This document shows, piece by piece, positions 18,500-46,002 of a stretch of DNA of 64,000 bases. The stretch lies in the NCBI RefSeq assembly GCF_041053055.1, contig NZ_CP163443.1:5997001-6061000 (forward strand). The letters run 5' to 3'. How positions within the stretch are numbered: position 1 is the stretch's first letter; each line of letters starts with the position of its first letter. The notes below the pieces were generated by a model. That model saw only the letters and a list, made by a program, of their open reading frames with translations, did not search any database and was not told the origin of the DNA. Source of the DNA: Streptomyces sp. R41. GTDB lineage: Bacteria > Actinomycetota > Actinomycetes > Streptomycetales > Streptomycetaceae. Both the position numbers and the translations under genes were made by a program.

Positions 18500-19219
18500 G
18501 TGCCCCAGAATGTGCTGCTCGCCGAGGACGACCGTGCCATCCGTCACGCCCTGGAAAGGGCGCTGGCGCTGGAGGGCTATGAGGTGACGGCCGTCGCCGA
18601 CGGGGTGGAAGCGCTGGCCCAGGCCCACCGCACTCCACCGGACGTGTTGGTCCTCGACGTCATGATGCCCGGCATCGACGGGCTCCAGGTGTGCCGCGTG
18701 CTGCGCGCGGAGGGCAACCGCACGCCGATCCTGATGCTCACCGCGCTCGTCGAGACCGCGGACCGCATCGCGGGCCTGGACGCCGGCGCAGACGACTACG
18801 TGGTCAAGCCGTTCGACGTCGAGGAGGTCTTCGCCCGGCTGCGCGCCCTGCTGCGCCGCACGGGGACGGGCGCGGCGAACGGCACCCCCATCGACGTACC
18901 GGTGCCGAAGGAGCCCGACGGGCAGATCGTCGCGGCCGGGCTGCGCATGGACATCCAGGCGCGACGGGCCTGGCGCGGGCAGCGGGAGCTGGAGCTGACC
19001 CGGACCGAGTTCGAGCTCCTCGAACTGCTCGTCCGCAACGCGGGCATCGTCCTCGACCACGCCACCATCTACGACCGGATCTGGGGCTACGACTTCGGTC
19101 CCGGTTCCAAGAACCTCGCCGTATACGTGGGGTATCTGCGGCGCAAGCTCGACGAGCCGGCAGCACCGGCGCTGATCCACACGGTGCGGGGCGTGGGGTA
19201 CGTACTGAGGGAGGACTGA
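18500..19219 (+). CDS. OmpR/MprA-type response regulator
   Basis: 239 residues: receiver domain with acidic D10/D11, phospho-acceptor D53 in VLVLDVMMPG and K in VVKPFD; C-terminal winged helix (LTRTEFELLELLVRNAG, IWGYDFGPGSKNLAVYVGYLRRKL). Starts at GTG 18500, with no strong Shine-Dalgarno. Directly followed by its kinase gene with no gap. Closest by pattern to MprA/PrrA-like envelope-stress regulators of actinobacteria. Confidence 0.95.
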   Translation: MPQNVLLAEDDRAIRHALERALALEGYEVTAVADGVEALAQAHRTPPDVLVLDVMMPGIDGLQVCRVLRAEGNRTPILMLTALVETADRIAGLDAGADDYVVKPFDVEEVFARLRALLRRTGTGAANGTPIDVPVPKEPDGQIVAAGLRMDIQARRAWRGQRELELTRTEFELLELLVRNAGIVLDHATIYDRIWGYDFGPGSKNLAVYVGYLRRKLDEPAAPALIHTVRGVGYVLRED

Positions 19220-20827: not shown

Positions 20828-20980
20828 GTTTTTCGCCCCCTCCGCCCCTGCCCGACCCGACCTGGGGCTCCGCCCCAGACCCCGTTCGCGCAGTTCCCCG
20901 CGCCCCTTTTCAGGGGCGCGGGGAACTGCGCGGTCTTTTGGCGGGCGGCACCCCCAGGTACGGGACGGGCAGGGGCGCGA
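20828..20980. repeat. dispersed GC-hairpin repeat, copy B, at the kdpD breakpoint
   Basis: TTTTTCGCCCCCTCCGCCCC at the left, core hairpin 20888-20931 (22-bp-class stem on GCGCAGTTCCCCGCGCCCC with a TTTT loop), and mirrored CCCCCAGGTACGGGACGGGC at the right. It lies between the histidine kinase stop and the kdpD remnant, exactly where kdpD similarity ends. Confidence 0.85.
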
Positions 20981-21068
20981 CGCGGCGGTGTGCCTCGGAG
21001 AGCATCGCGTACGTCTTGCCGACGCCCGGTGCCGCGCCGAGGCAGATCCGAAGCTTGCCGCGCCCCAT
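20910..21068 (-). pseudogene. kdpD: kdpD remnant, first 29 codons only
   Basis: Minus-strand ATG 21068 opens MGRGKLRICLGAAPGVGKTY, the unmistakable start of the KdpD potassium sensor with its Walker A loop, up to AMLSEAHRR. Similarity then stops and the frame runs 23 codons into the dispersed repeat before a TGA. Full KdpD is about 850 residues, so the USP, four-helix membrane and kinase parts are all gone. It follows kdpE by 26 bp with GAGAGGAC as ribosome binding site, the normal operon order. The deletion junction coincides with the edge of repeat copy B. Confidence 0.85.
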
Positions 21069-21094: not shown

Positions 21095-21778
21095 TCAGGC
21101 CTCGAAGCGGTAGCCCATGCCGGGCTCGGTGATCAGATAGCGGGGGTGGGAGGGATCCGCTTCCAATTTGCGCCTGAGCTGGGCCATGTAGACGCGCAGA
21201 TAGTTGGTCTTGCTGCTGTACGAGACACCCCACACCTCCTGGAGGAGCCGGCGCTGCGTGATGAGGCGGCCCGGGTTGCAGACCAGGATCTCCAGCAGGT
21301 GCCACTCGGTCGGGGTGAGGCGTATGTCGTGGCCGGCGCGGGTGGCCTTCTTGGCGGCCAGGTCGACGGTGAAGTCCTCCGTGGTGACCAGGACGGTCTC
21401 CGGGGCGAGCGCCACGGTCTCCGTACGGCGGACGGCGGCGCGCAGCCGGGCCAGGAGTTCGTCCATGCTGAACGGTTTGGTGATGTAGTCGTCGGCGCCC
21501 GCGTCGAGCGCGGCGACCTTCTCGTCGGAGGCCTGGCGCGCGGACAGCACCAGGATCGGTACGCGGGTCCAGCCGCGCAGCGCCTTGATGACGTCCACTC
21601 CGTCCATGTCGGGCAACCCCAGGTCCAGTACGACCACGTCGGGCCGGCGCGCGGCGGCGAGCCGGAGCGCGGTGGCGCCATCGGGGGCCGCGTCGACTCC
21701 GTACCCGCGGGCCTGCATGTTGATCACGAGCGCACGTACGAGCTGTGGATCGTCCTCCACCACCAGCATCCGGGTCAT
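21095..21778 (-). CDS. kdpE: KdpE response regulator (orphan)
   Basis: 227 residues, OmpR family: receiver with phospho-acceptor D52 in VVVLDLGLPDMDG, K in YITKPFSMDEL, and the KdpE-specific winged helix (LTPTEWHLLEILVCNPGRLITQRRLLQEVWG, then SSKTNYLRVYMAQLRRKLE). It activates kdpFABC on K+ limitation in known systems. ATG 21778 has GGAAAGG upstream. A hairpin (21850-21896) separates it from kdpC. Because kdpD is destroyed, its phosphate donor must be another kinase, or it acts unphosphorylated. Confidence 0.95.
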   Translation of the reverse strand: MTRMLVVEDDPQLVRALVINMQARGYGVDAAPDGATALRLAAARRPDVVVLDLGLPDMDGVDVIKALRGWTRVPILVLSARQASDEKVAALDAGADDYITKPFSMDELLARLRAAVRRTETVALAPETVLVTTEDFTVDLAAKKATRAGHDIRLTPTEWHLLEILVCNPGRLITQRRLLQEVWGVSYSSKTNYLRVYMAQLRRKLEADPSHPRYLITEPGMGYRFEA

Positions 21779-21914: not shown

Positions 21915-22583
21915 TCAGCTCTTCGCCGCAAGTCCCTTGAGTGCGATGTTGAGTTCGAGGACGTTGACGGTGGGCTCGCCGATGAAGCCGAGGGTGCGGC
22001 CCTCGGTGTGCTCGTCGACCAGCTTCTGGACCTGGGCGACGGACAGGTGGTTCTTCTCCGCGATGCGGTGGACCTGGATGTCCGCGTACTCGGGGGAGAT
22101 GTCCGGGTCCAGCCCTGAGCCGGAGGATGTCACCGCGTCGGCGGGGACGTCGGAGGGCTTGACCGTGTAGCCGTTCACCGAGTTGTCCTTGATGACGGCC
22201 TTCTTGGCTGCGGTCACCCAGTCGATCAGGTCCTTGTTGTCACCGGAACGGTTGGTGGCGCCGGACAGGATCAGCTTGTACTGGGTGTTGACGCTGTTGG
22301 TGCCGAGACCGTTCTGCGGGCGGCCCTGGAACCACTTCAGGTCGGGCTCCGGGGTCTCCTGGCCCTTCTTCAGCGGCAGGTTGTAGGACTGGCCGATCAG
22401 CGAGGAGCCCACGACCTTGCCGTTGGACTTGATCTCCGAGCCGTTCGCCTTGTCCGAGAGCAGGCCCTGGGCGACACCGGTGACGGCGAGCGGGTACAGG
22501 ACGCCTGTCACCACCGTGAGCACCAGGAGGGCTCGCAGGCCGGCCCAGAGCAACCGGGCAGTGTTCGTAACCGAGTTGTTCAT
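21915..22583 (-). CDS. kdpC: potassium-transporting ATPase subunit C
   Basis: 222 residues. One N-terminal membrane helix (LLWAGLRALLVLTVVTGVLYPLAVTG) then a periplasm-side domain with SLIGQSYNLP, WFQGRPQ, SGSGLDPDISP and the closing VNVLELNIAL, all KdpC signatures. It stabilises the KdpFABC complex. ATG 22583 is 24 bp after kdpB. GC content and codon use match neighbours. Confidence 0.97.
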   Translation of the reverse strand: MNNSVTNTARLLWAGLRALLVLTVVTGVLYPLAVTGVAQGLLSDKANGSEIKSNGKVVGSSLIGQSYNLPLKKGQETPEPDLKWFQGRPQNGLGTNSVNTQYKLILSGATNRSGDNKDLIDWVTAAKKAVIKDNSVNGYTVKPSDVPADAVTSSGSGLDPDISPEYADIQVHRIAEKNHLSVAQVQKLVDEHTEGRTLGFIGEPTVNVLELNIALKGLAAKS

Positions 22584-22607
22584 GGTGATCAGCACGCTTT
22601 CAAAAAA

Positions 22608-24749
22608 TTACAGCCCGGGGATGAGGGAGATGATCAGGTCGATGATCTTGATGCCGATGAAGGGTGCGATCAGTCCGCCGAGGCCGTAGATCCCGAGGTT
22701 GCGGCGGAGCAACTTGTCCGCGCTGACCGGCCGGTACTGCACACCGCGCAGGGCGAGCGGCACCAGCGCGATGATGATCAGCGCGTTGAAGATGACCGCG
22801 GACAGGATCGCGGAGTCCGGCGAGGACAGGTGCATGATGTTGAGCTTGTCCAGGCCCGGGTAGACCGCCGCGAACAGCGCCGGGATGATCGCGAAGTACT
22901 TCGCGACGTCGTTGGCGATCGAGAAGGTCGTCAGCGCACCTCGGGTGATCAGCAGCTGCTTGCCGATCTCCACGATCTCGATGAGCTTGGTGGGGTTGGA
23001 GTCCAGGTCCACCATGTTCCCGGCCTCCTTGGCGGCCGAGGTACCGGTGTTCATGGCCACACCCACGTCGGCCTGGGCCAGCGCCGGCGCGTCGTTCGTG
23101 CCGTCACCGGTCATCGCGACGAGCTTGCCGCCCGCCTGCTCTCGCTTGATCAGCGCCATCTTGTCCTCGGGAGTCGCCTCCGCGAGGAAGTCGTCGACGC
23201 CCGCCTCGTCGGCGATCGCCTTGGCTGTCAGCGGGTTGTCACCCGTGATCATGACGGTCTTGATGCCCATGCGGCGCAGCTCGTCGAACCGCTCGCGCAT
23301 GCCTTCCTTGACGACGTCCTTGAGGTGGATGACGCCCAACACCCGGGCGCCGTCGATGTCTTCGACGGCCACGAGCAGCGGCGTACCGCCTGCCTCGGAG
23401 ATCCGGTTGGCCAGGGTGTCGGCGTCCTCGGACACCTCGCCGCCCTGCCCCTTCACCCAGGCGATGACCGAACCGGCCGCGCCCTTGCGGATCTTGCGCC
23501 CGTCGACGTCCACGCCCGACATCCGCGTCTGGGCGGTGAAGGCGATCCACTCGGCGCCCGCGAGCTCGCCCTGGTGGCGCTCACGCAGCCCGTACTTCTC
23601 CTTCGCCAGTACGACGATGGAGCGGCCCTCGGGCGTCTCGTCGGCCAGCGAGGAGAGCTGGGCGGCGTCGGCGACCTCGGCCTCGGTGGTACCGGTCACC
23701 GGCACGAACTCGGAGGCCTGGCGGTTGCCGAGGGTGATGGTGCCGGTCTTGTCGAGGAGGAGCGTCGAGACGTCGCCCGCGGCCTCGACTGCCCGCCCGG
23801 ACATGGCCAGTACGTTCCTCTGCACCAGCCGGTCCATGCCCGCGATGCCGATCGCGGAGAGCAGCGCGCCGATGGTGGTGGGGATCAGGCAGACCAGGAG
23901 GGCCACCAGGACGACCATCGTGAGATGCGTGCCCGCATAGTCCGCGAACGGCGGCAGGGTGGCCACCGCGAGCAGGAAGACGATCGTGAGGGACGCCAGC
24001 AGGATGTTCAGCGCGATCTCGTTGGGCGTCTTCTGCCGTGCCGCGCCCTCGACCAAGGCGATCATGCGGTCGATGAAGGTCTCGCCCGGCTTCGTCGTGA
24101 TCTTGATGACGATCCGGTCGGAGAGGACCTTCGTACCCCCGGTGACGGCCGAGCGGTCGCCGCCGGACTCGCGGATGACGGGCGCCGACTCACCGGTGAT
24201 CGCCGACTCGTCCACGGACGCCACGCCCTCGACGACGTCACCGTCGCCGGGGATGATGTCGCCCGCCTCGCAGACGACGAGGTCGCCGACGCGCAGTTCG
24301 GTGCCGGGGACCTGTTCCTCGGTCCTGCCATCCTTGGACAGCCGACGCGCGACCGTGTCGGTCTTGGCCTTGCGCAGGGTGTCCGCCTGCGCCTTGCCGC
24401 GGCCCTCGGCCACCGCCTCCGCCAGGTTGGCGAAGATCACGGTCAGCCACAGCCAGGCGCTGATCGCCCAGCCGAACCAGTCGCTCGGGTCCTTGAAGGA
24501 GAAGACCGTCGTCAGGACCGAGCCGACCAACACCACGAACATGACAGGTGACTTGACCATCACCCGCGGGTCGAGCTTGCGGAAGGCGTCCGGCAGCGAC
24601 GTGAGCAGTTGCTTCGGGTCGAACAGACCCGCGCCGACGCGTCCTTCGTCCTTGTGACCGGTCGGCACATCACTGTGCGGCGCCCGGGTCGGGGTGGCTG
24701 TGGACATCGAGTCCTCTTGCTTCTCTATACGAGTCGTACGAGTGGTCAT
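22608..24749 (-). CDS. kdpB: potassium-transporting P-type ATPase subunit B
   Basis: 713 residues. Catalytic ATP-hydrolysing subunit of the high-affinity K+ pump: phosphorylation site in [15 protein letters not shown] in the actuator loop ([16 protein letters not shown]), [23 protein letters not shown] hinge, and KdpB-type transmembrane [15 protein letters not shown] 24749 overlaps the kdpA stop (ATGA). A second start, ATG 24707, has a better AAGAGGA site and gives 699 residues, so either is possible. Confidence 0.97.
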
Positions 24750-26410
24750 GACGCCAGCCCCTCGGCCAGCGGACCCAGCGCCAGGGCCGGGAAGTAGGTC
24801 AGACCGGTGATGATCAGGATCGCGCCCACGAGGAGACCCGTGAACAGCGGCTTTTCGGTGCGCAGGGTGCCCGCGGTCGCCGGGACCGGCTTCTGCTCGG
24901 CGAGCGAACCGGCCAGCGCGAGCACGAACACCATCGGCAGGAAGCGGCCGAGCAGCATGGCGAGGCCGATCGTGGTGTTGAACCACTGCGTATCGGCGTT
25001 CAGACCCGCGAAGGCCGAGCCGTTGTTGTTGGCGCCGGAGGTGTAGGCGTACAGGATCTCGGAGAATCCGTGCGCCCCGCTGTTGGTCATCGAGTTGCCC
25101 GGCGTCGGCAGGGCCATCGCCGCGGCGGTGAAGATGAGCACCAGCGCCGGGGTGATGAGGATGTAGCAGGCCGCGAACTTGATCTCACGGGTGCCGATCT
25201 TCTTGCCCAGGTACTCGGGGGTGCGGCCGACCATGAGACCGGCGATGAACACCGCGATGATCGCCATGATCAGCATGCCGTAGAGGCCGGAGCCGGTACC
25301 ACCGGGTGCGATCTCGCCCAGCTGCATGCCCAGCAGGGTGATACCGCCGCCGAGGCCGGTGAACGAGGAGTGGAAGGAGTCCACCGCACCGGTCGAGGTC
25401 AGCGTCGTGGACACCGCGAAGATCGACGAGGCGCCGACCCCGAAGCGGTCCTCCTTGCCCTCCAGCGCACCGCCGGCGATCTGGAACGCCGGGCCATGGT
25501 GGGCGAACTCGGTCCACATCATCAGGGCGATGAAGCCGACCCAGATGGTGACCATCGTGGCGAGGATCGCGTAGCCCTGGCGCAGCGAGCCGACCATGCG
25601 GCCGAAGGTGCGGGTCAGGGAGAACGGGATGACCAGGAGCAGGAAGATCTCGAAGAGGTTCGAGAACGGGGTGGGGTTCTCGAAGGGGTGGGCGCTGTTG
25701 GCGTTGAAGTAACCGCCGCCGTTGGTGCCGATCTCCTTGATGGCCTCCTGGGAGGCGACCGCGCCGCCGTTCCACTGCTGCGAGCCGCCCATGAACTGGC
25801 CGACCTCGTGGATGCCGGAGAAGTTCTGGATCGCCCCGCAGGCGACCAGGATGATCGCGGCGACGACGGAGAGCGGCAGCAGGATCCGGACGACACCGCG
25901 CACCAGGTCGGCCCAGAAGTTGCCGAGTTCACCGGTGCGGGAGCGGGAGAAGCCGCGCACGAGCGCGACGGCCACCGCGATGCCGACGGCCGCGGAGACG
26001 AAGTTCTGGACGGCCAGACCGGCGGTCTGCACGACGTGGCCCATGGCCTGCTCGCCGTAGTACGACTGCCAGTTGGTGTTCGTCACGAAGGACGCGGCGG
26101 TGTTGAACGCCTGGTCCGGATCGATGGACTTGAAACCGAGCGAGCCGGGGAGGTGGCCCTGGATGCGCTGCAGCAGGTAGAGGAAGAAGACGCTGACCGC
26201 CGAGAAGGCGAGGACGCCGCGCAGGTACGCGGGCCAGCGCATCTCGGTGTCGGGGTTGGCGCCGATGCCCTTGTAGATCCACTTCTCGACGCGCAGGTGC
26301 TTGTCGGAGGAGTAGACCTTGGCCATGTAGTCGCCGAGGGGACGGTAGGCGAGTGCCAGTGCCGCTATGAGCGCGAGCAGCTGGAGCACGCCGGCGAGGA
26401 CGGGGCTCAT
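24746..26410 (-). CDS. kdpA: potassium-transporting ATPase subunit A
   Basis: 554 residues, about ten helices, K+-selective channel-like subunit related to the Trk/Ktr superfamily. Selectivity-filter loops are visible: [48 protein letters not shown] and [15 protein letters not shown]. Eight bases separate it from kdpF, and it overlaps kdpB by 4 bp. Confidence 0.97.
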
Positions 26411-26418
26411 GTTGGTGC

Positions 26419-26508
26419 TCAGAACCTCTCCGGGAAGACGAGGGCGAGGACGAGATAGCCCAGCAGGGCGACGGCCACGATCAGGCCGACGATGTTTTCG
26501 ACGGTCAC
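26419..26508 (-). CDS. kdpF: KdpF small subunit
   Basis: 29 residues, one hydrophobic helix ([20 protein letters not shown]) ending FPERF, the KdpF pattern. GTG 26508 follows GGAGGTGACGCC. KdpF is a lipid-like stabiliser of the Kdp complex. Its start overlaps the stop of the upstream micro-ORF (GTGA). Confidence 0.85.
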
Positions 26509-26609
26509 GGCGTCACCTCCACATGTCCGGAGGCGGGGACGGGATGGCCCAGCAGGGCGACGGACACCGCGAAGCCGACGCCGCCGATGAATACAGCCTC
26601 GGCGGTCAC
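26505..26609 (-). CDS. kdpF-like micro-ORF
   Basis: 34 residues, GTG start, one hydrophobic segment [20 protein letters not shown]. The [14 protein letters not shown] helix resembles KdpF, so it may be a diverged duplicate. It overlaps both neighbours by GTGA start-stop junctions, which points to translational coupling in one leader of tiny proteins. The C-terminus [10 protein letters not shown] also encodes the ribosome binding site of kdpF, so a coupling-only role is possible. Confidence 0.55.
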
Positions 26610-26689
26610 AGCTTCGTCACCCCCTTGGCGACGAGGGCCACCAGCGCGAACACCGCGATCGTGGTGACGACGAAGGCCACGTCGGCCAT
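26606..26689 (-). CDS. small single-helix membrane protein at the head of the kdp operon
   Basis: 27 residues: DVAFVVTTIAVFALVALVAK followed by GVTKL, one membrane helix. ATG 26689 has a good AGGAG 8 bases upstream. First open frame of the kdp transcript, overlapping the next micro-ORF by GTGA. Similar short peptides upstream of kdpF occur in Streptomyces as far as I recall. Function unknown, probably an accessory Kdp subunit. Confidence 0.7.
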   Translation of the reverse strand: MADVAFVVTTIAVFALVALVAKGVTKL

Positions 26690-26763: not shown

Positions 26764-26816
26764 GTTGACGGCTCCCTTACGGCGGCCCGTACGCCCTTGT
26801 CGCATCCTTGACGCGC
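26764..26816. promoter_or_regulatory. candidate KdpE operator: two pairs of 11-bp direct repeats
   Basis: Pair one: GTTGACGGCTC (26764-26774) directly followed by CCTTACGGCGG (26775-26785). Pair two: CCTTGTCGCAT (26795-26805) and CCTTGACGCGC (26806-26816). An inverted half-site (CCTTGACGGG on the minus strand) lies near 26833-26842. The region is the promoter gap between the kdp leader ORFs (minus) and the membrane-protein gene at 26881 (plus). An 11-bp period is what OmpR/PhoB-type dimers bind. The same motif is at 27561, 31534 and 31945. Confidence 0.6.
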
Positions 26817-26880
26817 CGCCCCATCAGAGACCCGTCAAGGCATGCTGCCTCCGGCCTCCCAGGCCCCTACGGTCGGTCAT

Positions 26881-27435
26881 ATGGAAAGCCGCAACGACGT
26901 GCGCAACGCGGTCGGCGCACCCCCACCACCGCCCGCGGAAGCGGCACACGACCGCCTCTGGGCCCGGGACGTACGCAGCTCGATCCGCTGCGCGGCCGCG
27001 CTCCTCGGCCTCCTGCTGCTGATCGACCGGGCCGCCGGCACCCTCACGGACCTGCGCGCCCTGCTGTGGGTCTCCCTCGCGGTGCTGTTGTTCCTGGTCC
27101 TCTGCCCCGCCCGGGTCGCCGCCGGTGAGGGCTGGCTGGCCTCGCGCGGGCTGCTGCGCGCCCGGCGGGTACGGACCGACCACCTGGTGTCGGTGCGTGT
27201 TCTGGACGGCGTCGGCCAACGGCTCGTCCTGCGGGACACCTTCGGCGCGAGCCTGGAGATCGACCCCCGGGTCCTCGTCGCCAATCCCGCACTGTGGCAC
27301 CGCCTGGACGAGGACACCCGCGTCTCCGCCCTCCGCGGCTCGCTCATGTGCGGGGCGACCGCGCTGCACCGCGTCTCGCAGCGCATCGACGGCGAGACTG
27401 CGCTGACGGTGTTCAAGGTGTCGGGGCTGGACTGA
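26881..27435 (+). CDS. hypothetical membrane protein, divergent from kdp
   Basis: 184 residues. Proline-rich N-terminus (APPPPPAEAAHDRLW), two closely spaced helices (ALLGLLLLIDRAAG and LLWVSLAVLLFLVLCPA), then a soluble beta-rich part (GEGWLASRGLLRARRVRTDHL, LVLRDTFGASLEIDPRVLV, LWHRLDEDTR) resembling bacterial PH-like membrane proteins. The ATG at 26881 has no clear ribosome binding site. Its position against the kdp promoter suggests co-regulation with potassium genes. Confidence 0.7.
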   Translation: MESRNDVRNAVGAPPPPPAEAAHDRLWARDVRSSIRCAAALLGLLLLIDRAAGTLTDLRALLWVSLAVLLFLVLCPARVAAGEGWLASRGLLRARRVRTDHLVSVRVLDGVGQRLVLRDTFGASLEIDPRVLVANPALWHRLDEDTRVSALRGSLMCGATALHRVSQRIDGETALTVFKVSGLD

Positions 27436-27560
27436 TCCGCGTCTGCCGGGCCGGGGCGACCAATGGCTCCACGTACGGACGCTCAGTTGTTCCCCTTGCG
27501 GACGCCCGCCCGCTCCTCGTACGGGCGCCCTTTTGCTCCATATGTACGTGTCCGACGAAA

Positions 27561-27582
27561 CCCTAACGGTCCCTTAACGCCC
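27561..27582 (+). promoter_or_regulatory. candidate KdpE box upstream of the KimA-like gene
   Basis: CCCTAACGGTC (27561-27571) followed at once by CCTTAACGCCC (27572-27582), 55 bp before the start codon. Same 11-bp-period direct repeat as upstream of kdp. Confidence 0.6.
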
Positions 27583-27636
27583 TGCGGGCCGCTCACCCTC
27601 CCCCTCCGTGCCCCTCCCCCGGCTTACCCTCCGCCC

Positions 27637-29670
27637 GTGCTCAACGTGACGGGGATCCTCAAGCGGCTGGTGATCGGCCGGGCGATGCGCAGCGAAGAGC
27701 TGCACGAGACGCTGCTGCCCAAACGGCTCGCGCTGCCGATCTTCGCCTCGGACCCGCTGTCGTCGGTGGCGTACGCGACGCAGGAGATCCTGCTGGTCCT
27801 CACGCTCGGCGGACTGGCGTATCTGCATTTCACGCCCTGGATCGCGGCCGCGGTCGTGGCACTGATGACGGTCGTGGTGCTCTCGTACCGCCAAGTGGTG
27901 CACGCGTATCCCAGCGGCGGCGGCTCGTACGAGGTGGTGTCCACGAACCTCGGCCCGTCCGCCGGACTGGTCGTCGCCGCCTCGCTCCTCGTCGACTACG
28001 TCATGACGGTGGCCGTCTCGGTGGCCTCCGGCGTCGACAACATCATCTCGGCCCTCCCCCAACTCGCCGACCACCGCGTCCTGTTGGCGCTCTGCTTCGT
28101 CGCGATCCTGACGGCGATGAACCTGCGAGGCGTACGCGAGTCGGGGCGGGCCTTCGCCGCACCCACTTACCTCTTCATCGGCGGCGTCCTGATCATGGTG
28201 ATCACCGGTCTGATCCGGTACTTCCTCGGGGACGCGCCGGTCGCCGAGAGCGCAAAGTACGGTGTCACGCCGGCCCCTTCGGACGCGCATCTCACGGGCC
28301 TGGCCCTCGTCATGCTGGTGCTGCGCGCTTTCTCGTCCGGCTGTACGGCACTGACCGGCGTGGAGGCGATCTCCAACGGCGTACCGGCGTTCCGCAAGCC
28401 CAAGTCGAAGAACGCGGCCTCGACGATGGCGGCGATGGGCATCATCGCGATCGTCATGTTCGTCGGCGTCACCGCGCTGGCGCTGATCACCAAGGTGCAC
28501 ATCACCGGTGACTCCTGCCGTCTGACCGGCCTGAACGGCGACTGCTCCTCGTACACGCAGCGCACCGTCATCGCGCAGATCGCGGCGGCGGTCTTCGGCG
28601 GCGAGCACAGCGTCGGCTTCTACTTCATCCAGGCGGCGACCGCGCTGGTCCTGATCCTGGCCGCGAACACGGCCTTCAACGGCTTCCCGCTGCTGTCGTC
28701 GATCCTTGCCCAACACCGTTACCTGCCCCGCCAGCTGCACAACCGGGGCGACCGGCTCGCCTTCTCCAACGGCATCGTGGCCCTGGCGGTCGTCGCGGGC
28801 CTGCTGCTGTGGGGCTTCCGGGCGAACGTCACCAGCCTCATCCACCTCTACATCCTGGGCGTGTTCACCTCCTTCACGCTCTCCCAGCTCGGCATGGTCC
28901 GGCACTGGAACCGCGAGCTGCGCGCGACACCCGACCCGGTCACGCGCCGTCGCCATCACACGGCCCGCGTGGTCAACGCGTTCGGCGCGGTCGTCACGGG
29001 GCTGGTCCTGGTGATCGTCCTTGCCACCAAGTTCACCCAGGGCGCGTGGCTGGCGGTGCTCGCGGCGATCGTGCTGTGGGTGATGATGCGCGGGATCCGA
29101 CGGCACTACGACGCCACGGCGGCGGAGCTGGCAGTGACCGACCCGCGCGGTGAACTCGTCCCGCCCAGCCGGGTGTTCGGGATCGTGCTCGTGTCCACGA
29201 TCCACAAGCCGACCCTGCGCGCCCTCGCCTACGCGCGCGCCTTCCGCCCCGACCAGCTGGAGGCCCTCACGGTCTCGGTCGACCGCGACGAGGCGGCCGC
29301 GCTCCGCACGCGCTGGGAGGAGTACGGCATCGAGGTTCCGTTGAAGATCATCGACTCTCCGTATCGCGAGGTGACCCGGCCGGTCGTGGAGTACGTCCGC
29401 TCCATCCGCCGCGAGAGCCCGCGGGACATCGTCGCCGTCTTCATCCCCGAGTACGTCGTCGGCCACTGGTGGGAGAACCTGCTCCACAACCAGTCCGCCC
29501 TGTGGCTCAAGAGCCGTCTCCTCTTCACTCCCGGCGTCATGGTCACCAGCGTCCCGTGGCAGCTGACCTCCTCGGCCCGCGCCGACCGCCCGGCGGCCCG
29601 GGCCCCGGGCTCATTCCGCCGAGGCGAGCCCCAGCACCCGCAGCCCCGGGCCGGCTCCCGCCACGAGTAG
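27637..29670 (+). CDS. KimA-like APC-superfamily potassium permease
   Basis: 677 residues, about 12 helices then a cytoplasmic C-terminal domain of roughly 170 residues. The N-terminus (LKRLVIGRAMRSEELHETLL, FASDPLSSVAYATQEILL) matches the KimA/YdaO pattern of high-affinity K+ importers of the APC/KUP fold. The C-terminal part has a USP-like look (VLVSTIHKPTLRALAYARAF). KimA proteins are often controlled by c-di-AMP; nothing here shows a riboswitch. GTG 27637 chosen because similarity begins there. A lower-complexity tail (RRGEPQHPQPRAGSRHE) ends the protein. Confidence 0.85.
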   Translation: MLNVTGILKRLVIGRAMRSEELHETLLPKRLALPIFASDPLSSVAYATQEILLVLTLGGLAYLHFTPWIAAAVVALMTVVVLSYRQVVHAYPSGGGSYEVVSTNLGPSAGLVVAASLLVDYVMTVAVSVASGVDNIISALPQLADHRVLLALCFVAILTAMNLRGVRESGRAFAAPTYLFIGGVLIMVITGLIRYFLGDAPVAESAKYGVTPAPSDAHLTGLALVMLVLRAFSSGCTALTGVEAISNGVPAFRKPKSKNAASTMAAMGIIAIVMFVGVTALALITKVHITGDSCRLTGLNGDCSSYTQRTVIAQIAAAVFGGEHSVGFYFIQAATALVLILAANTAFNGFPLLSSILAQHRYLPRQLHNRGDRLAFSNGIVALAVVAGLLLWGFRANVTSLIHLYILGVFTSFTLSQLGMVRHWNRELRATPDPVTRRRHHTARVVNAFGAVVTGLVLVIVLATKFTQGAWLAVLAAIVLWVMMRGIRRHYDATAAELAVTDPRGELVPPSRVFGIVLVSTIHKPTLRALAYARAFRPDQLEALTVSVDRDEAAALRTRWEEYGIEVPLKIIDSPYREVTRPVVEYVRSIRRESPRDIVAVFIPEYVVGHWWENLLHNQSALWLKSRLLFTPGVMVTSVPWQLTSSARADRPAARAPGSFRRGEPQHPQPRAGSRHE

Positions 29671-29687
29671 CCGCAGGTGATGGTTGC

Positions 29688-29826
29688 TCGCCCCCGCCGC
29701 CCCGTAAGGGGCACGGGGAACTGCACGGCAAGCCCTCCCCGGCAGGCGCCCGAAAGACAACCCAGGGGGGTCTGGGGGGGAAGCCCCCCGGGTACGGGAA
29801 TCGGTAGGGGCGGCGGGGGCGAAAAA
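29688..29826. repeat. dispersed GC-hairpin repeat, copy C (degenerate)
   Basis: Contains GGGGCACGGGGAACTGCACG, the paired GGGGGG blocks around AAGCC, and the terminal TAGGGGCGGCGGGGGCGAAA. Sits between the convergent KimA-like and 532-residue membrane-protein genes and can terminate both. More diverged than copies A, B and D. Confidence 0.75.
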
Positions 29827-29834
29827 GCGGTGGG

Positions 29835-31433
29835 TCAGCGAAACTCCGCGAGTCGTGGGCGCAAGCCGAGCAGTGTCAGCGCAGCCCCGGTGAGGAGCAA
29901 GGCGCATGTCCAGGGAAGCAGCCCGGTCGCCTCGGAGCGGCCCGCCCGCACCGCCGCCACGAAGTGGTCACGGTTGATGTCGGTCAGCTCGCCCAGCGCG
30001 GTCATCCACTCCGCGAAATGCGCGTTGGACGTGGCCGGTTGCCAGTCCATGCAGAACTCGACGGCCTCGCGCTCCTGGCCCTGCGCGACCAGTGTGCGTA
30101 TCTTGCGGTCGTCGCGCTGGTAGACGGCGTACGTCTCGACCGTCTTCTCGGCGGCGGCCCGCTCCCCGGGGAAGGTGATGTTGGCGAGCTCGCGCTCGAA
30201 CTCCCCGGTGAAATCGAGGTCGTCGTGGTCGGCTTCGTACATCTGCCAGGTCCGGTCCAGCTCGGCGTCGTAGTTCGACAGGGTTGCCCCTGAAATGCCG
30301 TACAGCTTCTGCGACTTGGCGAGGAAGGACGGACCGTACTGGTAGCGCCGCTCGGGATCGAGGAGCCACCGGCTCTCGTCGGCGTTCGCGTCGTACGCGA
30401 TCGCGCGGGCGCGGGAGAGCGCGACGACGGAGTCGAAGGCGTCGCGGCGGGCGCCGCGCAGATGCTCGGCGGAGGCGGAGAGCGCCTCGGTGCCGAGGAT
30501 CACGGCGAGCAGGGCGCAGACCGTGGCGGCCAGTACGCCGGGGTTGAGGATCCGGTGGAAGCGCCGTGTCAGGTAGCACTGGAGGACGCCGAGCGCGGCG
30601 AGCAGCAGCGCGCCGAGTGCTACGACGGCGGCGAGCTGGGCGGCGAGGGTCGAACGGGCCTCGGCGTACTCCCTGTTGAACGCGCTGTTGTTGGAGTCCA
30701 CCAACGTGCGGGCCTCCGGAAGGAGTTGGCCCTGCAGCAGATCGGTCGCCGTACGGTAGTCCTCGAGCGCGGCCGCCTTGCCGCCGGAGCGGCCGTCGTT
30801 CTCCAGGGCGCGCCCTATCCGTTCCTGGTACTCGGCGAAGTTGTCGGTGAGGGACTCCACCGTCCGCTCGTCCGCCCGGTCGCCCTGGGCGGCGACGGCG
30901 AGGGCGCGCAGGTCGTGGCCGATCTCGCGACGGGCTTCGCCGTAGAAGCCGTACGCCTTGTCGTACGGCGTTCCCAGGCGCCCTTTGCCCGCGTTGCCGC
31001 TGGACAGCAGGAGGTTGGCGGCCTGGGCGTCCATGTCGTTGAGGGCGAGGTTGAGGTCGGCGGCAGTGGTGGTGCGGGGCGCGTCGCGTTCGGCGACGGC
31101 GTTCCAGGTGCCGGTGGCGGCGAGTGCGGCGAGCAGGAGCAGCAGGGCGAGGGTGGTGGCGAGCGAGACCGTGCCCGCGCGCAGCAGACGCAGCCGCGCG
31201 GGCACGGTGGCCCAGTAGCGGCGGCGCAGAGCGGCCCGCGCGGCCACGGCCTCACGACGGAGGCGCCGGCCCGGACGGCCCGGCCGTAACCTCCGGCGCG
31301 GCCGCGGACCGGGCGGCCTGCGCCCGGGCGGAGCGCCGACCGGTCCGCGCCGAGGCTGTGAGACAGTCCTGACCCCCGCAACCCCACTGCGTGAAGAACC
31401 GGCCGTGATCGTCACGAGCCCCTCCAGCGGCAT
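29835..31433 (-). CDS. membrane protein with duplicated TM-helical-bundle-TM modules
   Basis: 532 residues. A basic Pro/Arg-rich N-terminus (about 80 residues) precedes TM1 (about 88-110), an extracytoplasmic all-helical domain to about 245, TM2 and TM3 back to back (about 247-305), a second helical domain (LRGARRDAFDSVVALSRARA to about 495) and TM4 near the C-terminus. Each module looks like a chemoreceptor-type four-helix sensor, but no HAMP, kinase or other output domain follows. Flanked by two large K+-type permeases and preceded by a candidate KdpE box. Start ATG 31433 uncertain; a GTG just inside is possible. Function unknown. Confidence 0.8.
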   Translation of the reverse strand: MPLEGLVTITAGSSRSGVAGVRTVSQPRRGPVGAPPGRRPPGPRPRRRLRPGRPGRRLRREAVAARAALRRRYWATVPARLRLLRAGTVSLATTLALLLLLAALAATGTWNAVAERDAPRTTTAADLNLALNDMDAQAANLLLSSGNAGKGRLGTPYDKAYGFYGEARREIGHDLRALAVAAQGDRADERTVESLTDNFAEYQERIGRALENDGRSGGKAAALEDYRTATDLLQGQLLPEARTLVDSNNSAFNREYAEARSTLAAQLAAVVALGALLLAALGVLQCYLTRRFHRILNPGVLAATVCALLAVILGTEALSASAEHLRGARRDAFDSVVALSRARAIAYDANADESRWLLDPERRYQYGPSFLAKSQKLYGISGATLSNYDAELDRTWQMYEADHDDLDFTGEFERELANITFPGERAAAEKTVETYAVYQRDDRKIRTLVAQGQEREAVEFCMDWQPATSNAHFAEWMTALGELTDINRDHFVAAVRAGRSEATGLLPWTCALLLTGAALTLLGLRPRLAEFR

Positions 31434-31525
31434 GCCACGGACGCTCGCCCGTGTCCCCCGTGCCGCTCAGTCTGCGACCGGTTTCGGCCACGACTGTCGT
31501 CCCTTGACGCCCTCCTGATGCCTCC

Positions 31526-31870
31526 TCAGGCGACTTTGACGGCGCCTTGACGCGTCCGGCTCGCGCCGTTCAGCCGAAGAACCGGACCGGCAGGCCGACG
31601 GGATACGTCCCCCTCGCCAGCGAACCCGACGCGCTCGACGGCGTCCCGGTCGACGGCGAGGGTGAGACCCTCGCCGCGCAGCGGCAGCAGCTGTTCGAGG
31701 ATCACCTCGGTCTGCAGGTTGGCGAGCGCGGCGCCGATGAAGGGGTGCGCGCCGTGCCCGTATGCGATGTGCCCGGCGCCACGTGCCACCTCCCGGGTGA
31801 GGTCGAGCCGCCCGGGGTCTTGGAAGGTGCCGGGGGCACGCTTGGCGGCATGCTGTGCGCTGCGCCGCAT
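31526..31870 (-). pseudogene. cytochrome P450 C-terminal fragment
   Basis: The frame reads FQDPGRLDLTREVARGAGHI, then AYGHGAHPFIGAALANLQTE, clearly the heme-loop region of a P450 (usual FGxGxHxCxGxxLA), but the heme-ligand Cys is replaced and the P450 body is missing. Just upstream in another frame GGETVLIP is the matching preceding strand, so a frameshift also occurred. True similarity covers about 31640-31930; the last residues are unrelated and overlap a candidate KdpE box. Confidence 0.7.
31534..31555. promoter_or_regulatory. candidate KdpE box upstream of the 532-residue protein
   Basis: CTTTGACGGCG (31534-31544) followed by CCTTGACGCGT (31545-31555), about 100 bp upstream of the minus-strand start at 31433; a single half-site CCTTGACGCCC lies at 31502-31512. 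Confidence 0.55.
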
Positions 31871-31944
31871 GGTGCGGGGATGCGGGGGATCAGGACGGTT
31901 TCACCGCCCGGGAAGCGTGACCGGGGAAGGGCGCGACCGGCCGG

Positions 31945-31966
31945 TCTTAACGCAGTCTTGACGCGT
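31945..31966 (+). promoter_or_regulatory. candidate KdpE box upstream of the second permease
   Basis: TCTTAACGCAG (31945-31955) followed by TCTTGACGCGT (31956-31966), 107 bp before the start codon at 32074. Confidence 0.6.
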
Positions 31967-32073
31967 TTGGCCCAGTTATCCGTGGGCCCGGGGATCACTC
32001 CCTGCATACGCTGGTCCTGCCGTGTCCTCGATGGCCGGAAACTTTCGAAGAGCCGTACGTCAGGAGCACGCCG

Positions 32074-34029
32074 ATGGCCGCCACCGACCACGACGCCCGC
32101 ACGAGCCGCTTGCGCGGGTGGATGCTGGAAGGCCTGTCCGACATGGCCAGGCACCAGCAGGGGCAGCGCGCCGTCGAGCCGGAGCCCGCGCACAAGGGAC
32201 AGCGCTGGTGGCGGGTGATGTGCCTGACCGGCGTCGACTACTTCTCCACCCTCGGCTATCAGCCGGGCATCGCAGCCCTGGCGGCCGGTCTGCTGTCCCC
32301 CGTGGCCACCATCGTGCTCGTCATAGTCACCCTGGCGGGCGCACTGCCCGTCTACCGGAGGGTGGCCGAGGAGAGCCCGCACGGCGAGGGTTCCATCGCG
32401 ATGCTGGAGCGGCTGCTGTCCTTCTGGCAGGGCAAGCTGTTCGTCCTCACCCTGCTCGGCTTCGCCGCCACCGACTTCCTGATCACCATCACCCTCTCGG
32501 CGGCGGACGCCTCCACCCACCTCGTCGAGAACCCCCATCTGACCGCCACACTCCACGACAAGCAGATGCTGATCACGCTGATCCTGGTCGCGCTGCTGGG
32601 CGCGGTCTTCCTCAAGGGCTTCCTGGAGGCGATCGGGGTGGCCGTGGTCCTGGTGGCGATCTATCTGGGGCTCAACACCGTGGTCGTGATCAACGGACTG
32701 TGGCATGTGATGTCCGCAGGGCATGTGGTCACCGACTGGTCCAGCGCCCTGACCGCCGAACACGGAAACATCTTCGCGATGATCGGGGTGTCCCTGCTGG
32801 TCTTCCCGAAGCTGGCCCTCGGTCTGTCCGGCTTCGAGACCGGTGTGGCGGTCATGCCGCACGTCGAGGGCGACCCCGGGGACACCGAGGAGAACCCCAA
32901 GGGCCGTATCCGGGGCACGAAGAAACTGCTGACCACGGCCGCCCTGATCATGAGCGTGTTCCTGATCGCCACCAGCTTCATCACCACCGTGCTCATCCCG
33001 GAGAAGGAGTTCGAGTCCGGCGGCCAGGCCAACGGCCGTGCGCTGGCGTATCTGGCGCACGAGTACCTCGGCAACGCCTTCGGCACGGTCTACGACGTCT
33101 CGACGATCGCCATCCTGTGGTTCGCGGGAGCCTCCGCCATGGCCGGGCTGCTCAACCTGATGCCCCGCTATCTGCCCCGCTACGGCATGGCCCCGCACTG
33201 GGCGCGCGCCGTCCGCCCCATGGTGATCGTCTTCACCCTGGTCGCCTTCCTGGTCACCTGGATCTTCGACGCCGACGTCGACGCGCAGGGCGGCGCCTAC
33301 GCCACGGGTGTCCTGGTCCTGATGTCCTCCGCGGCGATCGCGGTGACCATCGCCGCACGCAAGGCCCAGCAGCGCAACTGGACGATCGCCTTCGCCATCG
33401 TCTCGGCGGTCCTCCTCTACGTCACCGTCGTGAACGTCATCGAACGCCCCGACGGCGTGAAGATCGGCGCCTGCTTCATCGCCGGCATCATCCTCGTCTC
33501 GCTCCTGTCCCGGCTGGCCCGTGCCTTCGAGTTGCGCGTCACCAGCGTGAAGCTGGACGACCTGGCGGAACGTTTCGTACGGGACATCGCCAGCCGGCGG
33601 ATCCGGTTCATCGCCAATGAGCCCGACAACCGCGACATCACCGAGTACCGGGAGAAGGTCGAGCAGATCCGGGCGGACAACGACCTCCCGGCCCAGGAGG
33701 ACTTCGTCTTCCTCGAGGTCACCGTGCTCGATCCCTCGGAGTTCGAGGCGGGCCTGAACGTACGGGGCGAGGTCCTCCACGGCCGCTACCGCGTCCTGAC
33801 CCTGGAGTCCTCCTCCATCCCCAACGCCCTGGCCGCCCTCCTCCTCCACGTCCGCGACTCCACCGGCTGCACCCCCCACATCTACTTCGAGTGGACCGAG
33901 GGCAACCCCTTCACCAACTTCTTCCGCTTCTTCCTCTTCGGCCAGGGCGAGGTCGCCCCCGTCACCCGAGAGGTCCTCCGCGAGGCCGAACCCAACCGCT
34001 CCCGCCGCCCACGGGTCCACGTCGGCTAG
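32074..34029 (+). CDS. APC-superfamily permease
   Basis: 651 residues, 11-12 helices: [20 protein letters not shown] is the first APC helix pair, [20 protein letters not shown] the family-typical mid segment. The cytoplasmic C-terminus of about 160 residues ([22 protein letters not shown], then [31 protein letters not shown]) is conserved-looking and not found in simple amino-acid permeases. Annotated generically as an amino acid transporter in many genomes; the neighbours and shared operator suggest K+ transport or K+-linked solute uptake. The start follows GTCAGGAGCACGCCG. Confidence 0.85.
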
Positions 34030-34034
34030 GTCGG

Positions 34035-34187
34035 CGGTTTTCGCCCCCCTCCGCCCCTGCCCGGGCTGGTCGCGCAGTTCCCCGCGCCCCTTTTCAGGGG
34101 CGCGGGGAACTGCGCGATCTTTTAGCGGGGGTCTGGGGGCGCAGCCCCCAGGTACGGGAATGGGTAGGGGCGGAGGGGGCGAAAAAC
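34035..34187. repeat. dispersed GC-hairpin repeat, copy D
   Basis: Large near-palindrome: TTTTCGCCCCCCTCCGCCCC at the left mirrored by GGGGCGGAGGGGGCGAAAAA at the right, with a core hairpin 34072-34115 identical in its arms to copy B. Lies between two convergent stop codons and can terminate both transcripts. Confidence 0.85.
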
Positions 34188-34193
34188 CTTTCC

Positions 34194-35026: not shown

Positions 35027-36595
35027 TCAGGACCGCGGGAGGACCAGCCGGAACGTACAGCCCTTCCCCGGCGCGGTGTCCAGTTCCAGCCGGCCGCCGT
35101 GCCCCTGCGCGATCGCGGCGGCGATGGCGAGCCCGAGCCCGCTGCCGCCCTGGCTGTGCGACCGGGACCGGGACCGGTCCACCCGGTAGAAGCGCTCGAA
35201 GACGCGCTGGGCGTCCTCGGGGTCGAGCCCCGGCCCCTCGTCGGCGATCTCCATTACGCCGACGGCAGTTCCGTACGGCAGAGGCGGTGACGCGCCGACG
35301 CGGCCGGGCCGGTCCGCCCCACCGGTGTCCGGGCCGGCCCGAACCGCTCCGACGCGTACGTGGACCGGGGTGCCCGCGGGAGTGTGCGTCCGCGCGTTGG
35401 ACAGCAGGTTCTCGACGACCTGCCGCAGCCGGTGCGGATCGCCGACGGTCTCCACCAGCTCCAACTCGTCCCCCCTGCGCAGCGGATCGAGGCCGATCGG
35501 GCGGCCGCCGCTGCCCAGGGCGGCGGCGCTCACGGCGTCGGCGGCCAGCGAGAGGAGGTCGACGGGATCCCGGCGGTAAGAGGGTTCCTGGTCGAGTTGG
35601 GCGAGCAGTTGCAGGTCGTCGACGAGCAGGCTCATGCGTTCCGCGTTCTGGGCGATCAGCCGGTTCGCCTCGCGTCTGCCCTCGGCGGACTGCTGCTCGT
35701 GGCGCAGTGCCAGTTCGGCGAAGCCCTGGATCGTGGTCAGCGGCGTACGCAGTTCGTGTCCGGCGTCGGCGACGAAGCGGCGCAGCCTGGCCTCGGAGGT
35801 CTCGCGTTCGCGCAGGGCACCCTGGAGCCGTTCGAGCATGGTGTTCAGGACCCGGCCGAGCCGCCCGGTCTCGGTGCGCTCGTCGGTGTCGTGCAGCCGC
35901 AGGTCGAGGTTGCCGTCGGTGATGTCCGCGGCGGTGTGTTCCATCCGGGTCAGCGGCAGCAGCCCGAGCCGTACGACCCAGCGACCGAGCAGCACGACGC
36001 AGGCGATGGTGAGGGCGAGCAGTACGCCGTCCACCAGGAGGATCTTGGAGGTGGCACCGTCCACTGTGTCCATGGGCAGCGCGACGACGGCCTTCATGCC
36101 GTCGGGGCCGTTCCGCAGGACGACCCGCCAGTGGCCGCCACCCGACGTGGCGGGCACGGTGGTGGGCCGCCCCGCGGTCAGGCCGAGGTCGTCGGCGTCG
36201 GACGACAGGTCGGGTGCCGACGGCTGTGGGTCGCCGAGCGAGGCGCTCAGGAGGCGGCCGTCGGAGTCGTAGAAGGAGACCCGGAAGTCGGAGGGCAGGG
36301 AGCCGGGGGTGGTGAACCTGCTCGGGAACCCGTGTCCGCTCACCGCGTCGGCGTACGCCTTGACGGGCGTGCGGAAGCCGGTGAGCTGGTCGTCGAGGCC
36401 GTCCATCAGCCAGGACCGCAGGACGACGAAGCCGATGACCTCGGCGGCCAGCACCGCTGCGGTGGCGACGACGGTGATGCCGAGGACGAGACGGCGCCGC
36501 AGGGAGCGCGGCTTCATCCGTACGCGGAGCGGCTCCACCTGTACGCGGAGCGGCTCCACCCGTATCAGGCGCCGTACGGTCGACAGCCGCTTCAC
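35027..36595 (-). CDS. OmpR-linked sensor histidine kinase (TcrY/PrrB-like)
   Basis: 522 residues. N-terminus carries a 24-bp tandem duplication encoding RVEPLRV twice (36519-36566). TM1 about 36-60, extracytoplasmic sensor of about 120 residues, TM2 about 184-205, HAMP, H280 in DAGHELRTPLTTIQ, ATPase with N box VENLLSNARTH, G1 DEGPGLD and G2 GGSGLGLAIA. Starts on the ATGA overlap with the regulator stop, so co-translated; a start at the second Met (27) is possible. Confidence 0.94.
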   Translation of the reverse strand: MKRLSTVRRLIRVEPLRVQVEPLRVRMKPRSLRRRLVLGITVVATAAVLAAEVIGFVVLRSWLMDGLDDQLTGFRTPVKAYADAVSGHGFPSRFTTPGSLPSDFRVSFYDSDGRLLSASLGDPQPSAPDLSSDADDLGLTAGRPTTVPATSGGGHWRVVLRNGPDGMKAVVALPMDTVDGATSKILLVDGVLLALTIACVVLLGRWVVRLGLLPLTRMEHTAADITDGNLDLRLHDTDERTETGRLGRVLNTMLERLQGALRERETSEARLRRFVADAGHELRTPLTTIQGFAELALRHEQQSAEGRREANRLIAQNAERMSLLVDDLQLLAQLDQEPSYRRDPVDLLSLAADAVSAAALGSGGRPIGLDPLRRGDELELVETVGDPHRLRQVVENLLSNARTHTPAGTPVHVRVGAVRAGPDTGGADRPGRVGASPPLPYGTAVGVMEIADEGPGLDPEDAQRVFERFYRVDRSRSRSHSQGGSGLGLAIAAAIAQGHGGRLELDTAPGKGCTFRLVLPRS

Positions 36596-37380
36596 CGGCC
36601 GGCGGTCCGGTCCGCGGTCCGGTCGTGGCCGACAGTCCGTTCCGTGGTCCGGTCGTGTTCGTGCTCGCGGGGCAGCCGCAGGCAGTACCCGATTCCGCGG
36701 ACCGTGTGGATGAGCGGCGGATCGAAGCGGTCGATCTTCTTGCGCAGGTACTTGACGTACGTCTCGACGATGCGCGAGTCACCGGCGAAGTCGTAGCCCC
36801 ACACATGCTGGACGATCTGTGTCCGGCTCAGCACCCGGTTGGCGTTGGCCATGAGGTAGGCGAGCAGTTGGAACTCGGTGGGGGAGAGCGGCACGTACTG
36901 GTCCGCGCGGTGCACCTCGTGCGCGGCCTCGTCGAGCCGCAGGTCGGCGAAGAGCAGGAGGTTCTCGCCCGCGTCGCCGGACGGCGGCTCCTCCGTGCCG
37001 ATGCGGCGCAGGATCGCCCGGATCCGCAGCAGCACCTCCTCGATGCTGAAGGGCTTGGTGACGTAGTCGTCCCCGCCGGACCTCAGCCCGGCGATGCGGT
37101 CGGACACGTCGATGCGCGCGGTCAGGAACAGTACGGGTGTGTTGTTGCCGCCCGCCCGCATCGCCCGGGTCACCTCGAAACCGTCCAGGTCGGGCAGCAT
37201 CACGTCGAGCAGGATCAGATCCGGGCCGAACCGCTCGACCTCCCGCAGGGCGGACGCGCCGGAGTCCGCGCTGCTCACCTCGAACCCGGTGAGCCGCAGC
37301 GTGGACTCCAACAGGGCGCGAATGCTCGCCTCGTCCTCCACGACGAGGAGTCTGTGCTTGGGCGTGGAGTGCTCGGCCAT
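36592..37380 (-). CDS. OmpR-family response regulator (TcrX/TrcR-like)
   Basis: 262 residues. Receiver with D59 in LILLDVMLPDLDG and K in YVTKPFSIEEVLLRI; winged helix with SPTEFQLLAYLMANANRVLSR and IVETYVKYLRKKID. After the expected end (IGYCLRLPREHE) there is an odd 20-residue Thr/Arg/Asp repeat tail (RTTERTVGHDRTADRTAGR). Cognate kinase gene overlaps downstream. Confidence 0.94.
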   Translation of the reverse strand: MAEHSTPKHRLLVVEDEASIRALLESTLRLTGFEVSSADSGASALREVERFGPDLILLDVMLPDLDGFEVTRAMRAGGNNTPVLFLTARIDVSDRIAGLRSGGDDYVTKPFSIEEVLLRIRAILRRIGTEEPPSGDAGENLLLFADLRLDEAAHEVHRADQYVPLSPTEFQLLAYLMANANRVLSRTQIVQHVWGYDFAGDSRIVETYVKYLRKKIDRFDPPLIHTVRGIGYCLRLPREHEHDRTTERTVGHDRTADRTAGR

Positions 37381-45825: not shown

Positions 45826-46002
45826 CGTGCTGCTCCTCGAAGAAGGCTTCGTGCGCCGCCGATCGATTCGGCCGGGCGCTTGGGTGAAAGCTTTGCCCGC
45901 CTGTCCGGAAATGGACCGCCCCGCTGACGGATGCTTGACGGGAAGCCCCGGACCCGTAACGCGATGCTGACGGAGCACGCAGATACCGAGGTCGGCGACC
46001 GG

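Follow-up and report, generated by a model that had tools for sequence, protein, structure and literature searches.

Phased direct repeats upstream of kdp and other genes in Streptomyces as probable operators of the response regulator KdpE

In this study, we analysed a stretch of 64,000 nucleotides from Streptomyces sp. R41 (the window; positions 5997001-6061000 of a 10.46-Mb single-contig genome), in which the kdp operon and several genes near it are preceded by direct repeats of a 6-bp half-site, YTNACG. Judging from comparative sequence evidence, we propose that the response regulator KdpE uses these repeats as operators, and we put the probability of this reading at roughly 0.87. Throughout, two half-sites spaced 11 bp apart are called a pair and scored out of 10, whereas four half-sites at offsets 0/11/32/43 are called an array and scored out of 20; coordinates are those of the window. 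The repeats and the element associated with them are as follows.

26765-26813, plus strand: candidate kdp operator array, with half-sites TTGACG (26765), CTTACG (26776), TTGTCG (26797) and TTGACG (26808), score 19/20
26822-26838, minus strand: extra pair TTGACG-N5-CTGATG beside the PH196 start, second-best matrix match
27563-27579, plus strand: strict pair CTAACG-N5-TTAACG, located 77 bp upstream of the KimA-like gene
31504-31552, plus strand: array of the GlnX-like gene, with half-sites TTGACG (31504), CTGATG (31515), TTGACG (31536) and TTGACG (31547), score 19/20
31947-31963, plus strand: strict pair TTAACG-N5-TTGACG, located 127 bp upstream of the second permease and on its gene strand
32007-32012, plus strand: -10-like element TACGCT, 43 bp past the pair of the second permease
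45924-45972, plus strand: SAV_915 array CTGACG/TTGACG/GTAACG/CTGACG, 98 bp before the gene start at 45825 (minus strand), score 19/20

The genes that these repeats precede, together with that of the proposed binder, were identified by searches against profiles and PDB sequences and, where stated, by eye.

21095-21778, minus strand: kdpE, response regulator and proposed binder of the sites (profile and PDB matches)
21915-22595, minus strand: kdpC (PF02669, 2.9e-63)
22608-24749, minus strand: kdpB (TIGR01497, 1063.6 bits, cut-off 527.9)
24746-26410, minus strand: kdpA (PF03814, 1.5e-229; TIGR00680, 677.5 bits, cut-off 387.7)
26419-26508, minus strand: kdpF, 29 amino acids (read from the sequence by eye)
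26606-26689, minus strand: small membrane open reading frame starting MADVAF, the first reading frame past the candidate operator and upstream of kdpF (by eye)
26881-27435, plus strand: PH196, divergently oriented gene of a small membrane protein with a hydrophobic stretch (start codon by eye)
27637-29670, plus strand: KimA-like K+ transporter (phmmer; start codon by eye)
29835-31433, minus strand: 532-residue GlnX-like signal-transduction membrane protein (NF058618, E 2.4e-71)
32074-34029, plus strand: second permease, 651 amino acids (relatives named amino acid transporter or APC family permease)
43995-45395, minus strand: LysA-type decarboxylase (TIGR01048, 423.7 bits, cut-off 297.9)
45409-45825, minus strand: SAV_915 family protein (NF042914, 74.8 bits, cut-off 40)

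A preliminary description of this locus had listed repeats before kdp, the KimA-like gene, the 532-residue protein and the second permease, and reading the sequence confirmed them where they had been placed. Their shared core, given there as TTNACG, does not hold as written; YTNACG fits, since it covers CTTACG at 26776 and CTAACG at 27563 and leaves TTGTCG at 26797 with one mismatch. Both kdp pairs are present, the first having been given in a register one base off that of the others, and the two, listed as separate items, form one unit with offsets 0/11/32/43 that reads on the strand opposite to kdp transcription. The pair before the 532-residue gene is also there, as half of a longer element: its partner lies 32 bp away at 31504, and the whole array is oriented against that gene. 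The pair at 26822-26838 on the minus strand had not been listed. Finally, the pair at 45922-45943, which had been held up as a possible counter-example, is the first half of the array at 45924-45972 (19/20), which recurs at related genes, and we reject its reading as a counter-example.

With a motif that is short, degenerate and picked after the fact, the repeats could in principle be a product of chance or composition. On the plus strand of the window, however, there are five strict YTNACG pairs at spacing 11 (26765, 27563, 31536, 31947 and 45924), against an average of 0.28 pairs per spacing over the remainder of the range 6-60; on the minus strand of the window, no strict pair occurs at spacing 11. 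Resampling the window 20 times yielded ten arrays of score 16 and a single one of score 17, the highest score reached. Across the 10.46-Mb genome, the pattern YTNACGNNNNYYTNACGC, which was composed after the sites had been seen, gave nine matches versus four for a backwards control; three of the nine are the locus sites at 27563, 31536 and 31947, while the six outside the window, which speak for chance, include no array apart from one of score 16 (at L007). We trained a matrix on the kdp dimers of other species (152 in all, none from the window), and it ranked the sites in the order 26765 (30.2), 26838 on the minus strand (22.5), 31536 and 31504 (19.7 and 19.6), 31947 (15.8), 26797 (11.4), 27563 (8.9) and 45924 (8.7), and these top eight matches comprise the pairs of the preliminary description plus two that it had not listed. 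The maxima of ten resampled windows under the same matrix ranged from 8.3 to 16.4, so that the first four matches stand clear of them, 31947 exceeds nine of the ten and 26797 seven. Taken with the recurrence at related genes described below, the spacing controls and the resampling contradict a chance origin, which we consider highly improbable for the repeats in general and reject for kdp, the second permease and the GlnX-like gene. Such an origin is unlikely for the SAV_915 array and possible for the KimA-like pair at 27563.

The repeats before kdp are conserved across the genus. KdpA was found in 130 of 150 sampled genomes, and 79 loci, one per genome and mostly from long contigs, were taken for comparison. 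Nearly all of these relatives share the consensus TTGACG-N5-CWTACG-N15-TTGACG-N5-CWTACG on the strand opposite to kdp, with an array of at least 16/20 in 76 of the 79 (1/79 for the reverse complement and 0/79 for a plain reversal) and an information content of 1.79 bits in the half-site columns compared to 0.29 in the other columns. The spacing spectrum over the loci of the genus is dominated by 194 pairs at 11, followed by the related spacings 21, 32 and 43 (69, 125 and 52 pairs); spacings 47 and 58 gave 33 and 34 pairs, spacing 42 gave 21, and the rest of the range from 6 to 60 gave 1-17. A shorter pattern, TTGACGNNNNYCWTACG, occurs in 109 of the 150 genus genomes, with 222 matches by our own summation versus 24 when read backwards. 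Enrichment at orthologous genes in relatives, the test by which the preliminary description had proposed to refute its own idea, was thus found for kdp, and likewise for the second permease and the 532-residue protein; at the KimA-like orthologues it is weak.

In an unbiased scan, a collection with one genome per GTDB species was searched for TTGACG-N5-CNNACG occurring twice, 32 bp apart, which returned at least 120 matches, a sample. Among the 120 listed, 91 face kdpA within 450 bp in the kdp orientation, nine face kdpD, five kdpE and one PH196; a further one, read in forward orientation, precedes the second permease, six lie too near the end of their stretch and seven were left unassigned. 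Only four of the 120 contexts are also among the 79 kdp loci. Most of the matches listed come from Streptomyces, others from Nocardioides, Actinomadura, Nonomuraea, Planobispora, Planotetraspora, Streptacidiphilus, Hamadaea and one Acidobacteria metagenome-assembled genome, and the unassigned ones include two Kitasatospora records and one Marmoricola metagenome-assembled genome. In the Acidobacteria genome (L223), the array lies upstream of a kdpA 57% identical to that of the window.

For the second permease, we scored the distinct upstream regions of orthologues with at least 75% identity, excluding weaker homologues (54-70%). A pair at spacing 11 is present in 50 of 55 such regions, 48 times on the gene strand and mostly near -125, while any other spacing occurs in at most four. 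The pair also occurs at unlinked loci: among 43 loci, it was found in all seven within 60 kb of kdpA, in nine of 11 farther away on the same contig, in 18 of 20 on a contig other than that of kdpA and in all five from genomes devoid of kdpA. Each of these last five genomes encodes a full KdpD with a strict pair before kdpD. More broadly, in 20 genomes without kdpA, the second permease is absent from each of the six that lack a full KdpD and present in six of the 14 that have KdpD; this co-occurrence agrees with a role of KdpE, in a sample too small to weigh.

The same upstream regions bear on whether TTGACG could be a -35 promoter box repeated by coincidence, an idea suggested by its resemblance to the sigma-70-type -35 box. 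Among 50 aligned permease upstreams, window included, 42 have the -10-like element TACGCT 43 bp beyond the pair and two have it 44 bp beyond, which is too far for a -35 box; moreover, the repeats at kdp, the 532-residue gene and SAV_915 read opposite to the gene strand, and the half-sites recur at 11 and 32 bp. On these three grounds we reject the -35 box, which we regard as barely credible. In five other permease upstreams, a similar element lies at 32 bp and is thereby closer by precisely one unit of 11 bp; this difference suggests that the helical face of the pair relative to the -10 element matters.

Similar, if smaller, samples are available for the remaining genes. Two pairs 32 bp apart precede all five intact GlnX-like orthologues fetched, all of which lie near kdp by their coordinates and so represent linked copies only; the count leaves out two further G065 copies and three fragments (L360-L362), and a GlnX-like copy with stops (L359) has no pair directly upstream. 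In the PH196 family, a strict pair on either strand occurs in 20 of 29 upstream regions and is missing from nine. The core kdpD of genomes without kdpA is preceded by a pair of at least 9/10 in 11 of 13 cases scanned (ten of them between -65 and -122) and by none in the other two, and the core kdpD of Streptomyces sp. R41 itself has a pair scoring 9 at -98.

SAV_915-lysA relatives lie in 10 of the 79 kdp loci. Across 21 distinct SAV_915 upstream regions, window included, 20 carry a pair of at least 9/10 (19 of the 20 relatives when the window is excluded) and 14 a strict pair; 16 carry an array of at least 16, in 15 cases in the orientation seen in the window. These regions come from loci that had been retrieved because of kdp, the permeases or the array, with the two repeat genomes among 23 entries counted once, and are thus a biased sample; as background, 2000 random 260-bp pieces of the fetched loci yielded 72 strict pairs and 56 arrays. 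Among nine KimA-like orthologues, five have a pair of at least 9/10 within 350 bp and three a strict one, at positions that differ, with only L193 matching the window.

The regulator that we propose to bind these sites was called KdpE because of its relation to known KdpE proteins and its kdp context, although it lies outside the NCBIfam cut-off. The best of 103 NCBIfam families was the KdpE model (E 3.4e-73), whose equivalog cut-off was missed (245.8 bits versus 325). The PDB ranking placed 6lgq first, an entry labelled only DNA-binding response regulator, followed by 4kny and 4kfc, and the closest characterised relative, matching over the full length, is Escherichia coli KdpE (4kny, E 1.1e-64, residues 1-225). 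Residues R193, R200 and T215, named for the E. coli protein (PMC3264566), are identical in the window KdpE by our own count on the alignment.

Experimentally studied KdpE sites have a comparable layout. E. coli KdpE binds TTTATA-N5-TTTACA, and this kdpFABC operator resembles the Streptomyces repeats in that 6-bp half-sites with a leading TT form a direct repeat across a 5-bp gap (PMC3264566). It differs in being AT-rich and described as one pair, whereas the Streptomyces kdp sites have C/G in their half-sites and usually come as two pairs 32 bp apart (PMC3264566). A closer match comes from another actinobacterium, Mycobacterium smegmatis, whose KdpE protects an 18-bp stretch and requires 22 bp (PMC5401905). 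When reverse-complemented, this 22-mer is GGCCTTGATGGTTTCTTTACGG, which, compared by eye, contains TTGATG-N5-TTTACG; the spacing is the same as in Streptomyces and the sequence close to the consensus, and the orientation relative to kdp agrees too if the 22-mer was given, following custom, as the kdp strand (PMC5401905). The available text presents this site as A-rich, does not use the wording "direct repeat" and describes no wider KdpE gene set (PMC5401905). In Propionibacterium acnes, likewise an actinobacterium, a direct repeat was predicted as the KdpE site of a kdp operon that is induced ∼100-fold on K+ downshift; we liken it to our sites from its description, and, unlike the Streptomyces repeats, it overlaps the -35 region (PMC3848588).

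Direct repeats of 11 bp are often used by regulators of the OmpR/PhoB family in general, so a different member of this family might bind the sites while KdpE is a bystander. Two further response regulators, at 18500-19219 and 36592-37380, do lie in the window within 11 kb of kdp. Yet, in the fetched stretches around kdp, to which the search for orthologues was confined, a close orthologue of the first regulator turns up in only one of 79 (L064, 90% identity), and the second has no match above 44% identity. In addition, arrays lie before kdpD and kdpE, and the M. smegmatis KdpE site is a match; we regard another regulator as unlikely. KdpE is the economical reading, because arrays precede kdpD and kdpE, because pairs precede kdpD in genomes without kdpA and because the M. 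smegmatis site matches. The proposal of the preliminary description that these are KdpE sites is thereby supported by sequence comparison.

Several observations weigh against this assignment. On matrix score alone, the sites at 27563 (8.9) and 45924 (8.7) fall within the resampled noise. Three of the 79 kdp loci score below 16, namely L046 (11), L062 (12) and L064 (15), the first two of which carry divergent kdpA copies (65 and 62% identical to that of the window), and five of the 55 second-permease upstreams have no strict pair. The KimA-like gene is the weakest member, with four of nine orthologues showing no pair of at least 9/10 within 350 bp; the KimA-like orthologue of G103 keeps two degenerate pairs at a distance of 32 bp even though this genome lacks a full KdpD. 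As for the literature, the authors of the M. smegmatis study saw no likeness of their site to other KdpE sites and reported that M. smegmatis KdpE does not bind its own kdpD promoter (PMC5401905); binding of S. aureus KdpE to its own kdpD promoter is reported there as well (PMC5401905). According to unpublished data mentioned in a review, S. venezuelae KdpDE is dispensable for development on standard medium and for growth with 0.5 M NaCl or KCl, in a passage where low K+ goes unmentioned (PMC10117811).

On balance, we favor KdpE as the binder and envisage the following mechanism. One KdpE winged-helix domain would occupy each YTNACG half-site, a head-to-tail KdpE dimer would cover a pair with its 11-bp spacing, and two such dimers, separated by 32 bp or about three helical turns, would fill an array, making the arrays strong operators. 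When K+ is scarce, KdpD would phosphorylate KdpE. In Streptomyces sp. R41, the local kdpD is a remnant of 30 residues matching the KdpD start (20979-21068, minus strand, directly after kdpE), and the sole full KdpD of the genome is encoded ∼1.8 Mb away at C1:7826683 (L103), in a locus that adjoins genes for another KdpE (78%) and for a paralogue of KimA (60%); since the local copy is a remnant, KdpD would be supplied only by this separate core kdpDE locus. Phosphorylated KdpE would then activate kdpFABC-kdpE, kdpDE, the second permease, the GlnX-like gene, PH196 and SAV_915-lysA, and perhaps also the KimA-like gene. The circuit would be self-reinforcing, because kdpE ends the kdp operon and the core kdpD carries a site. 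The computation shows the repeats with their spacing, their presence at related genes and their likeness to published KdpE sites; binding by KdpE, a low-K+ signal and activation rather than repression are what we infer here, the last because KdpE acts positively in M. smegmatis (PMC5401905).

The suggestion that the sites mark one potassium regulon needs one change: their recurrence at matching genes in related Streptomyces does point to a potassium-response gene set, and this set is wider than potassium transport. The proteins concerned are unevenly characterised. The KimA-like protein matches the KimA structure 6s3k over its full length (phmmer, E 4.6e-116, residues 8-642). The 532-residue protein is called GlnX-like only, because it narrowly misses the cut-off of the GlnX model NF058618 (241.1 bits against 250) while covering nearly the whole model. 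PH196 had no match in Pfam or NCBIfam profile searches, and the second permease none in Pfam at 1e-3 or in the PDB at E 1. In other actinobacteria, GlnX controls the kinase PknG and hence 2-oxoglutarate/glutamate flux; a glutamate link via GlnX and PknG in Streptomyces is speculation on our part. Tentatively, and with doubts that exceed our confidence, we suggest that KdpE in Streptomyces may command a K+-starvation regulon that reaches beyond ion pumps to a GlnX-like sensor, the second permease and a LysA-type basic-amino-acid decarboxylase unit, such that K+ would be adjusted jointly with glutamate, its counter-ion, and with organic cations that substitute for it.

KdpE sites as such are of an already known kind; what would be new is that the Streptomyces operator consists of two phased pairs and that its regulon takes in a GlnX-like protein, the second permease and SAV_915-lysA. 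No report of a Streptomyces KdpE regulon was found in searches of the open-licence literature, judged mostly from their listings; subscription journals mostly lie outside it. The sites provide a concrete operator and gene list for Streptomyces, suggest a common architecture for the KdpE sites of mycobacteria and E. coli, and would tie uncharacterised genes (the permease, the GlnX-like protein, SAV_915-lysA and PH196) to potassium control.

A few minor features of the locus were noted as well. The start of the MADVAF reading frame recurs in those leaders that are long enough to include it, among every second array-bearing locus, the set inspected. Between the GlnX-like gene and the second permease, the minus strand at 31600-31870 looks by eye like a cytochrome P450 fragment. 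Two GC-rich stretches, at 29680-29830 after the KimA-like gene and at 34045-34190 after the second permease, look alike by eye and carry arms resembling gcgcggggaactgc.

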